Part shown: positions 12,071-14,551 of the stretch, piece by piece
How positions within the stretch are numbered: the stretch's first letter is position 1
Layout: every line of letters starts with the position of its first letter
Virus record (IMG/VR): IMGVR_UViG_3300042534_000806
Location: 1 to 38,135 of that record
DNA length: 38,135 nt
Strand: one strand, 5' to 3'
From: a virus
Made by a program: the position numbers and the translations under genes
The notes under the pieces: model-generated
Told to the model about the DNA's origin: nothing
The model's database searches: none
The model's input: only the letters and a program-made list of their open reading frames with translations

Positions 12071-12100
12071 ATTATGGGGACATTAATGTCCCCATGTCAA
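12071..12100 (-). promoter_or_regulatory. early promoter with operator palindrome in the spacer
   Basis: On the minus strand a perfect -35 TTGACA (12095-12100) and a -10 CATAAT (12071-12076) are 18 bases apart. A perfect 22-bp palindrome, half-site ATGGGGACATT, occupies 12074-12095 and so overlaps the inner edges of both hexamers. A repressor bound there would block RNA polymerase. This is the expected early promoter of the phage, driving the Ner-like gene and the transposition operon. Confidence 0.85.
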
Positions 12101-12109
12101 GGGGTTTTT

Positions 12110-12547
12110 ATGTCTCAAAAAGAAAAAGAGTCTGTCGGGGTGAGAATCCTGAAAGTCCGGGGTGAAATGGGCGTTGCCGAATTTGCTGATGAACTCGGCG
12201 TAAATCGCAAAACCATTACACGATGGGAGGCAAATGAAGCCCTGCCGGATGGCGCATCATTGTTAGCGCTTATGCAGAAATTTGGGGTCGATCCTGCATG
12301 GATTTTGACTGGCAGCGGTGCTGCCCCTGACCTTGCACCGGACGAAGCTACGCTACTCGCCAACTACCGACACTGCCCGCCCGATGGGAAGACGGCAATC
12401 AGGGCGACAAGTGCTGCGCTCGCAGCTGGAACGGTAGCGCCCCGCAAAAAAATAAAACAGATTGAAGGGTCAATTCAGAATTTCCACAGCCAGGTCGACC
12501 AAGTCGCTGGACGGGATGTGGTTAATCAGGGGAGGCGCAAGAAATGA
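12110..12547 (+). CDS. phage repressor (XRE-type HTH) with C-terminal QVAGRD motif
   Basis: A 145-residue protein with an XRE-type HTH at about 20-65 (GVAEFADELGVNRKTITRWEANEALPDGASL, then FGVDPAWILTGSG), a short helical linker, a basic stretch PRKKIK at 111-116, and a C-terminal tail at 123-140 (QNFHSQVDQVAGRDVVNQ). There is no LexA-like protease domain. It diverges from the Ner-like gene across the palindromic operator, so it is the immunity repressor. The tail motif recurs at the N-termini of the next two proteins. I chose ATG 12110, with AGGGG just upstream, over an in-frame ATG at 12074 inside the operator. Confidence 0.88.
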   Translation: MSQKEKESVGVRILKVRGEMGVAEFADELGVNRKTITRWEANEALPDGASLLALMQKFGVDPAWILTGSGAAPDLAPDEATLLANYRHCPPDGKTAIRATSAALAAGTVAPRKKIKQIEGSIQNFHSQVDQVAGRDVVNQGRRKK

Positions 12548-12933
12548 CTCAGGAATTTCACGGTCCAGTGGACCAAGTGGCAGGCCGAGATATCGTCAAC
12601 CAGAGCGAAACCATGCTTTGGCATTGTGAGACATCTGAGCTGCGGCCAGAGCTGAAGCGATGCCGCGGCAAGCTTTGGCAAGCACGCCTCAACCTATTCC
12701 TGAACGTGCCTACGGTCTGGATGGTTGCCGGCCTGCTCGTTGGCGTCTGGCTTCTGACAAGTGGGCAACTATTCAAGCAGGATGGGGAACTTTTGATGTT
12801 GGGTTGGGCGGTTGGTGGTGTCGTTATCCCGTCGCTATGGTTGGCACAGATAAGGAACAGCGAAGGTCATGCGATCTCGTTTTATCGGGAGCGCATTTCA
12901 ATCATCAAATTGATTTTGCGGGACAGGGCTTAA
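12544..12933 (+). CDS. two-TM protein with N-terminal QVAGRDIVNQ motif
   Basis: A 129-residue protein. Residues 3-20 (QEFHGPVDQVAGRDIVNQ) repeat the C-terminal motif of the repressor almost exactly. Two hydrophobic segments follow, about 53-72 (LNVPTVWMVAGLLVGVWLL) and 83-101 (LLMLGWAVGGVVIPSLWLA), then a basic C-terminal tail. It overlaps the repressor stop by 4 bases, so it is made in the lysogen together with the repressor. A membrane role in superinfection exclusion or as an effector is a hypothesis. No family recognised. Confidence 0.75.
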   Translation: MTQEFHGPVDQVAGRDIVNQSETMLWHCETSELRPELKRCRGKLWQARLNLFLNVPTVWMVAGLLVGVWLLTSGQLFKQDGELLMLGWAVGGVVIPSLWLAQIRNSEGHAISFYRERISIIKLILRDRA

Positions 12934-12993
12934 TTATGGATTAGGCGCCAACCACACGCCGCCGGATCACAAACAACAAAAAAGGGGATGGGG

Positions 12994-13653
12994 ATGCAGC
13001 AGGAGTTCCAGGAGAAGATCGGGCAAGTGGCCGGCAAAAATATTGTGAATGAGGGTTCGCACGGTGGTGACAGCGCCCACTCCATCAATGTCACGATCCA
13101 CGGCAATGTGACCGGACAGGAAATCAGGATCGGCACGATTACGGGCGGCACCAACATGATCGGCCATCATGGCGATATCCACATCCACGCCGAGCGCGTG
13201 GTGCACAAACCCAAGATCATTATCCAGCCCGGCCCGGAGCACATCAGCGACACCCAGCGCGCAAAATTGAAAGAGCTGGCAGCCGAGGTCGTCAAGATCG
13301 AGTCCGCCGTAAAGCGCAGCCCAAAGGGTTTCAGCGCCGTCTGGAGCGCGCTCAATCGCAAGATGAAAGCCTCCTCCTATCACCTCATCCGATCGGACGA
13401 TTACCCCAAGGCCGAAAAATTCCTGCGCGAATGGATCGGCCGCATCAGCTCGGCAAAATCCGCCCCGACCAAAGACCCGGACTGGCGCAAGCGCAAATAT
13501 TCCTACATCCACACCAACGTGAAGCAACTCGACGCCGGTGAGCGGCTGGATACGCTGCTCGCGGAAAAACATGGGGCGGCGTCATTGAAGGATCTGTCGA
13601 ATGATGATTTGGCCGCCGTGTACCAGACAGTTGCAGGGTGGAAACGGAAATAA
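12994..13653 (+). CDS. motif-bearing protein with beta-rich repeats and ORF6C-like C-terminal domain
   Basis: A 219-residue protein. Residues 3-20 (QEFQEKIGQVAGKNIVNE) carry the motif shared with the two upstream proteins, at the same positions as in the two-TM protein. Residues 28-70 are short Gly/His/Ile-rich strands (INVTIHGNVTGQEIRIGTIT and on), possibly a beta-helix or a self-assembling segment. Residues 85-150 (KLKELAAEVVKIES, then FSAVWSALNRKMKASSYHLI) resemble ORF6C, the C-terminal domain of phage antirepressors. A C-terminal helical part follows. I chose ATG 12994, 6 bases after AAGGGG; ATG 12988 touches that site. Confidence 0.72.
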   Translation: MQQEFQEKIGQVAGKNIVNEGSHGGDSAHSINVTIHGNVTGQEIRIGTITGGTNMIGHHGDIHIHAERVVHKPKIIIQPGPEHISDTQRAKLKELAAEVVKIESAVKRSPKGFSAVWSALNRKMKASSYHLIRSDDYPKAEKFLREWIGRISSAKSAPTKDPDWRKRKYSYIHTNVKQLDAGERLDTLLAEKHGAASLKDLSNDDLAAVYQTVAGWKRK

Positions 13654-14008: not shown

Positions 14009-14551
14009 ATGAATGACGAGAGGATGAGTGACCATCGTCTGCACAAACTGCTGTTCGATGTTCGCCGCTCCTTGCGTTACCATGACCGGCGACGGGCGTT
14101 CTTCGATCGGATGCACCAGATCACCGCCGGCCTGACGGTACTGCTCGCCGGTTCTGTATTATTCGAACTGGCACGACCGGGCGAGACGGCACCCTGGATG
14201 ATCGCTTTGGCCGTTGCTGCCGCCTTGTTGTCCTCCTGGGATATCGTTGTCAGCTATGCGAGCAAGGCCGGTCTTCACCGTGATTTAAAGATTCGATTTG
14301 GCGCGCTGGAAATGGCGATTCTAGCCGGCGATGAAACCTACGAAGCATGGCAGCATCACCATCTTGATCGCCTGCGCATTGAGCAGGATGAGCCGCCCGT
14401 CTTCCGTGCTCTCGACTTGCTTTGCCATAATGAATTGCTGGTAGCAGAGGGGTTCAAACGCAACGACGAAAAAGATAAGGAAGAATTTGCCCGCCTCAAC
14501 GGTTGGCAGCGCGCCACTCGCCACCTCTTTCACTGGGCCGATCTCGCCTGA
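14009..14551 (+). CDS. SLATT-like two-TM protein
   Basis: A 180-residue protein. An N-terminal amphipathic helix (about 10-35, LHKLLFDVRRSLRYHDRRRAFF) leads into TM1 (about 37-55) and TM2 (about 62-84), then a long soluble helical part with the conserved-looking HRDLKIRFGALEMAI segment. This two-TM plus helix layout resembles the SLATT superfamily, whose members act as pore-forming effectors in prokaryotic conflict systems; membership is my inference. It ends the lysogeny cassette just before the late promoter, so it may serve phage exclusion. Confidence 0.65.
   Translation: MNDERMSDHRLHKLLFDVRRSLRYHDRRRAFFDRMHQITAGLTVLLAGSVLFELARPGETAPWMIALAVAAALLSSWDIVVSYASKAGLHRDLKIRFGALEMAILAGDETYEAWQHHHLDRLRIEQDEPPVFRALDLLCHNELLVAEGFKRNDEKDKEEFARLNGWQRATRHLFHWADLA

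Follow-up and report, generated by a model that had tools for sequence, protein, structure and literature searches.

A peptide tag shared by the repressor, a membrane protein and an ORF6C-like protein of a transposable phage suggests a split immunity repressor

Immunity repressors are usually viewed as single, self-sufficient proteins. The locus described here raises the question of why a phage repressor should end in the same short peptide (the “tag”) that begins two proteins encoded directly after it, one of which contains a region resembling the ORF6C domain of antirepressors. The window, which is the whole stretch of DNA that was analysed (38,135 nucleotides of the IMG/VR record IMGVR_UViG_3300042534_000806), is of the B3/Mu transposable phage type. 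An earlier note on this sequence proposed that the ORF6C-like protein, P0001, is an antirepressor which contacts the repressor through the tag; its coordinates for the P0001 reading frame and its quoted peptides are exact (Table 1).

Table 1. Features of the tagged cassette and of its upstream region in the window
Feature	Coordinates	Strand	Basis or assignment
Perfect palindrome ATGGGGACATTAATGTCCCCAT, 22 bp	12074..12095	.	Candidate operator of the P0002 repressor
P0002, HTH (CI-like) repressor	12110..12547	+	HTH_3, repressor PHROGs, H71 identity
C-terminal tag of P0002, QNFHSQVDQVAGRDVVNQ	12476..12529	+	Pairwise scores, site differences
P0003: two predicted transmembrane helices behind an N-terminal tag	12544..12933	+	Hydropathy, AlphaFold2
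N-terminal tag of P0003, QEFHGPVDQVAGRDIVNQ	12550..12603	+	Site differences
P0001: tag, Gly/Ile/Val-rich linker and ORF6C-like domain	12988..13653	+	Pfam, PHROG, AlphaFold2, Foldseek
N-terminal tag of P0001, QEFQEKIGQVAGKNIVNE	13000..13053	+	Pairwise scores, site differences
Putative beta-rich linker, P0001 residues 33-70	13084..13197	+	Sequence; alignment; pLDDT <50
ORF6C-like helical domain, P0001 residues 82-221	13231..13650	+	Pfam core 112-149, AlphaFold2, Foldseek

The three genes lie in the order P0002, P0003, P0001, with a divergent early operon to their left. The start of P0003 overlaps the stop of P0002 (ATGA), P0001 begins 54 nt past P0003, and a scan for promoter-like sites showed none between the genes; closely spaced on one strand, they form one apparent operon. 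P0002 matches HTH_3 with 34.4 bits against a Pfam cut-off of 23, it also matches repressor PHROGs, and over residues 1-106 it shares 61% identity with the Pseudomonas phage H71 repressor and relatives. Its listed reading frame starts at 12074, which falls inside the palindrome, and the ATG at 12110 is therefore the likelier start. No other perfect 11+11 palindrome exists within the whole window, and this one is overlapped by a leftward promoter-like site that matches 11 of the 12 consensus bases (TTGACA-18-CATAAT, 12100..12071); an equivalent 22-bp palindrome lies directly 5' of the repressor start codon in the viral contig L007. P0002 thus combines the features of a CI-like HTH phage repressor, namely an HTH_3 match above the cut-off, divergent placement and a palindrome over a promoter-like site, and because of the HTH_3 match and the overlap of palindrome and leftward promoter-like site it is likely to repress the early operon.

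The tag is 18 residues long. The local score of the P0002 tag against the P0003 tag is 76 (shuffle mean 17.5) and against the P0001 tag 59 (shuffle mean 23.2), so that the motif which the earlier note saw in both P0001 and the repressor scores well above shuffles, and the similarity of the tags within the window is, as judged from sequence, beyond chance. Between the P0002 and P0003 tags the share of differing sites is 0.91 for synonymous sites (pS) and 0.13 for non-synonymous sites (pN); it is therefore the peptide and not the DNA that is conserved, which indicates that purifying selection acts on the tag. No Pfam family was found for the tags. The P0003 tag, and the P0001 tag together with the approximately 40 residues that follow it, were modelled by AlphaFold2 with pLDDT <50, and the beta-moment test was marginal or not significant, and not significant for the tags. 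The proposal that these 40 residues form short strands could consequently not be confirmed; a comparable Gly/Ile/Val-rich stretch is aligned at the same position in the fused repressors described below. A 24-residue tag profile matched 7 of 399 genomes of one order. The match in G242 (locus L040) alone looked genuine; in the remaining loci that were inspected it fell in unrelated or out-of-frame reading frames, or a tagged gene was absent.

P0001 has nothing confidently modelled over residues 1-70, while its residues 82-221 give a confident, all-helical AlphaFold2 model. Residues 112-149 match ORF6C (PF10552) with 19.5 bits (E 9.6e-4), which does not reach the Pfam gathering score of 22, and the protein is for this reason labelled “ORF6C-like”. 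Its closest named relative, the homologue in the phage Gregale, is 40% identical to it and exceeds that gathering score with 25.9 bits, and among the viral models of BFVD the domain model matches best to an “ORF6C domain-containing protein” (Foldseek probability 1.0, E 8e-6). The ORF6C-like region that the earlier note recognized is real but divergent.

Neither a Foldseek comparison of the domain with the PDB (nothing significant) nor a sequence search of the PDB with the domain profile (no match) yielded a relative. The three solved-structure chains that align best with the helical domain are C-terminal domains (CTDs) of phage annealing proteins (SSAPs): the 80alpha Sak CTD aligns over 66 residues at an rmsd of 1.5 A (Z 9.6) and the lambda Red-beta CTD with Z values of 7.3 and 7.0, although helical bundles match easily and matches at these Z values can be common arrangements. 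Chain 1B of 8QE9 is labelled as Sak (PMC11846896), and chain 1A was taken as Sak on that basis. Both halves of the domain (P0001 residues 86-156 and 162-221; window 13243-13650) align with the Sak and Red-beta CTDs. Compared by hhalign with Sak or Red-beta, the domain gave no significant match, although the Sak alignment falls within the structurally matched stretch. Since sequence comparison does not confirm it and helical bundles match so readily, the resemblance is a mere lead. Annealing-protein C-terminal domains bind partners such as SSB, and a link between the repressor and single-stranded DNA is possible.

A search with a profile of the ORF6C-like domain gave three loci in bacterial genomes and nine other viral loci; a further match (L020) is another fragment of the window's own sequence and was left out of these 12. 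Eleven of the 12 encode an HTH protein in whose single reading frame the HTH is followed by a Gly/Ile/Val-rich linker and, as the C-terminal part, the domain, and Pfam scans of these fused relatives return HTH and ORF6C matches together. The independent cases number fewer than 11, since two pairs of loci are near-identical (L021 with L028, and L024 with L026). In the one exception, L025, the protein is split, with the HTH gene directly upstream. It follows from the fusions that the domain normally makes up the C-terminal half of repressor proteins. A literature search, in which subscription journals were sparsely covered, turned up no paper that describes ORF6C in phage repressors.

The split arrangement is also found outside the window. 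In KS5, Carl1 and AP3 (P2-like Burkholderia phages) and in KS10 (Mu-like) a tagged repressor is followed by a tagged ORF6C-like gene, and in the prophage loci L039, L040, L041, L067, L068, L071, L072, L075 and L077-L079 a C-terminally tagged repressor is followed by an N-terminally tagged ORF6C-like protein, where the ORF6C assignment is a sub-threshold Pfam match for KS5 gp12 and L040 and is made by pattern alone for others such as KS10, L011 and L041. The KS10 partner has no Pfam ORF6C match, and an alignment of the split ORF6C proteins, which are highly divergent, found few genome matches. Partners in split cassettes often have a transmembrane helix: all of the prophage loci just listed other than L040 and L041 encode a repressor and a tag-ORF6C-TM protein, and L040 has the gene order of the window (repressor, tag-TM, tag-linker-ORF6C), its repressor tag only weakly resembling the tags of the two partners (against shuffled sequences, p 0.03 and 0.23). 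In B3 and Ps59 the tagged repressor is accompanied by a tagged membrane protein.

Several variants of the cassette were observed. On the minus strand of L011 (2633-4905) there are four tagged proteins, a repressor and three partners, two of which have predicted paired transmembrane helices. In L008, L025 and L043 the HTH protein lacks a tag, yet a tagged or linker-bearing partner follows; in L008 the untagged HTH protein (1847-2607) has directly 3' of it a 72-residue protein with a C-terminal tag, as if this were an adaptor. In Pseudomonas phage Komp_PAO1_1 the repressor (L062:2372-2905) ends in the tag SFHGPVGQAAQGDIKN and its neighbours are untagged. Phage H71, for all the similarity of its HTH to that of P0002, has neither a tag nor a tagged partner, so a tag is not required for a working repressor in general. 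An AP3 protein annotated as an alpha/beta hydrolase (AKA61159.1, L052:2001-2756) consists of tag, ORF6C-like region and transmembrane segment and is 46% identical to KS5 gp12, and on account of this build and identity the hydrolase name is probably wrong.

If the tags of one locus contact each other, then they would be expected to match their own partners better than those of other loci. Over 12 loci the repressor tag scores 46.2 against its own partners and 28.9 against shuffled partners (sd 2.8, p 5e-6), with tag limits drawn by eye and with the partners in genome loci picked by PHROG 6521 rather than by tag similarity, the repressor being the upstream gene. Over 11 loci the repressor tail compared with the partner head gives p 2e-5, and in segment combinations that omit either tagged end the signal is absent (p 0.2-0.33). 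Such matching would be produced by locus-specific contact, and could be produced by gene conversion of the tag within a locus too. Manual reading covered 18 loci, namely the window and 17 named phages: 7 combine a tagged repressor with a tagged neighbour, 10 lack both, and one, Komp_PAO1_1, has the tagged repressor alone; the Fisher p-value for this co-occurrence (2.5e-4, uncorrected for phylogeny) is a guide only, because the phages are related to each other. The contact with the repressor through the tag that the earlier note suggested gains indirect support from the locus-specific matching, which is confined to the tags, and the contact itself is something we infer from this matching.

The membrane component of the cassette is P0003, for which AlphaFold2 predicts helices at residues 30-52, 55-73 and 81-128. 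Relatives of it are present in L005, L007, L008 and L011, and a Foldseek search of BFVD with its model returned nothing with E <0.001. Other membrane or secreted proteins were observed in the vicinity of tagged cassettes. A predicted two-helix membrane protein (PHROG 11791; window 14009-14551, L005:2002-2544, L008:3579-4109) is 23-30% identical between loci, has no Pfam match and looks SLATT-type by eye only; no Pfam family was found for P0004 and its relatives. A similar secreted-looking protein with the pattern WW..QL.AA..GG.E..PG.I adjoins cassettes, either before or after them (L005:251-808, L041:2224-2778, L062:2918-3517), and ends near KPAHC in two of the three loci.

The explanation that best accommodates these observations, and which we judge to have about an even chance of being right, is that the cassette encodes a split immunity repressor whose parts are joined by the tag, which also tethers some of the complex to the membrane. 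The pieces carry the same short tag, and the tag therefore probably reassembles them. The single chain of HTH, linker and ORF6C-like domain found in Gregale would here exist as subunits rejoined by the tag, which would join the HTH subunit P0002 both to the ORF6C-like P0001 and to the membrane subunit P0003. P0002 would bind the 22-bp palindrome that overlaps the leftward early promoter, the oligomerization or regulatory half missing from the short HTH protein would come from P0001, and P0003 would anchor some of the complex in the membrane, possibly sensing or setting immunity there. That the subunits assemble, in which direction they affect repression and what the cassette does at the membrane are all points that we infer. 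The untagged HTH proteins of L008, L025 and L043, the tagged repressor without a tagged neighbour in Komp_PAO1_1, the absence of tag and partner in H71, the weak likeness of the tags in L040 and the low AlphaFold2 confidence for the tag speak against this explanation.

An alternative, which we regard as unlikely, is that the tag is a self-templating, amyloid-like signalling motif of the kind found in bacterial BASS (bacterial amyloid signalling sequence) and RHIM systems, and that the membrane proteins are effectors, acting for example in superinfection exclusion or abortive infection, which the repressor complex silences or triggers. The build of the cassette is BASS-like, in that a short motif is common to adjacent products of which one is a small helical membrane protein (PMC7889193), as many as four tagged proteins occur in one cassette (L011), and the further predicted two-helix membrane protein (window 14009-14551) has counterparts next to the tagged cassettes of L005 and L008. 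Against this, the cassette has no NLR (NACHT or NB-ARC) partner, the tags have no match to the Pfam RHIM family, neither AlphaFold2 nor the beta-moment test supports beta character, and P0001, P0003 and P0004 have no PADLOC match. A literature search found no account of amyloid motifs in phage repressors.

That P0001 is an antirepressor, as originally proposed, whose tag pulls the repressor off its operator, perhaps on a signal received through the ORF6C-like domain or the membrane partner, is in our judgement quite improbable. The presence of the ORF6C-like domain, weak matches of this region to the anti-repressor PHROGs 463, 2127 and 373, and a contact through the tag, which would suit sequestration, all fit such a role. 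ORF6C in antirepressors is usually accompanied by an N-terminal Bro-N, KilA-N, ORF6N or Rha domain, however, and none of these has a Pfam or PHROG match in P0001, whose N-terminus consists of tag and linker; P0001 is, moreover, encoded on the same strand and in the same apparent operon as the repressor, and its relatives carry the domain as the C-terminal half of the repressor itself. A role as co-repressor or assembly subunit fits better.

It is very unlikely that the tags are homotypic only, each protein self-oligomerizing and the three never meeting, for although the Komp_PAO1_1 repressor is tagged beside untagged neighbours and the likeness within a locus could come from gene conversion or duplication of the tag, the tags of P0002 and P0003 differ by saturated synonymous but little amino-acid change, which points to selection over a long time and not to a recent duplication, and the repeated placement of tags in adjacent genes would need some other reason. 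A frameshift split of one fused gene was rejected in view of the presence of P0003 between the halves and by the separate tag on each half.

If the cassette does encode a split repressor, then a repressor built from tagged subunits, with one subunit in the membrane, would tie the dormancy decision to events at the cell envelope, and a set of genes that adjoin repressors in B3-like, KS10-like and P2-like phages and are called no more than “membrane” or “hypothetical” would be explained. The broader idea that an NLR-independent, locus-specific and possibly amyloid-like motif runs temperate phage immunity, a co-evolving tag common to the repressor, the ORF6C-like subunit and one or more membrane proteins uniting lysogeny control with a membrane response in a single signalling complex, is a tentative and rather doubtful one. 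A review of amyloid signalling asks whether such motifs act in NLR-free pathways (PMC7889193), and tagged cassettes are concrete, testable candidates for these.

Further known systems may be compared with the cassette. BASS1-10 with BELL or NLR proteins share with it a short locus-specific motif at the ends of adjacent products and a helical membrane partner, but here a phage repressor stands in place of the NLR and the amyloid nature of the tag is putative. Pseudomonas phage B3, whose type of transposable phage the window resembles, likewise encodes a tagged repressor (ORF18) and, after it, a tagged membrane protein with two helices (ORF20), but it lacks an ORF6C-like partner and its tag differs (VTGxxNxxAGRDF). 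KS5 gp11 and gp12 (also Carl1 and AP3; PHROG 6521, “membrane protein”) are, as in the window, a C-terminally tagged repressor followed by a protein with tag and ORF6C-like region, but gp12 has a transmembrane helix of its own, whereas in the window P0001 is soluble and a different protein provides the membrane part; the KS5 paper names gp11 as repressor and gp12 as putative membrane protein, and in the passages found no link between them is mentioned (PMC3091744). The CI-like repressor of Gregale (WWQ71757.1; PHROG 17822), which is placed as an immunity repressor and adjoins a Ner-like gene and the transposase, is like P0001 in its C-terminal 156 residues, which are 40% identical to P0001 66-221; it differs in being one polypeptide with its own HTH and without the QVAGRD tag, while the window divides the HTH and ORF6C-like parts between two proteins, both of which are tagged.
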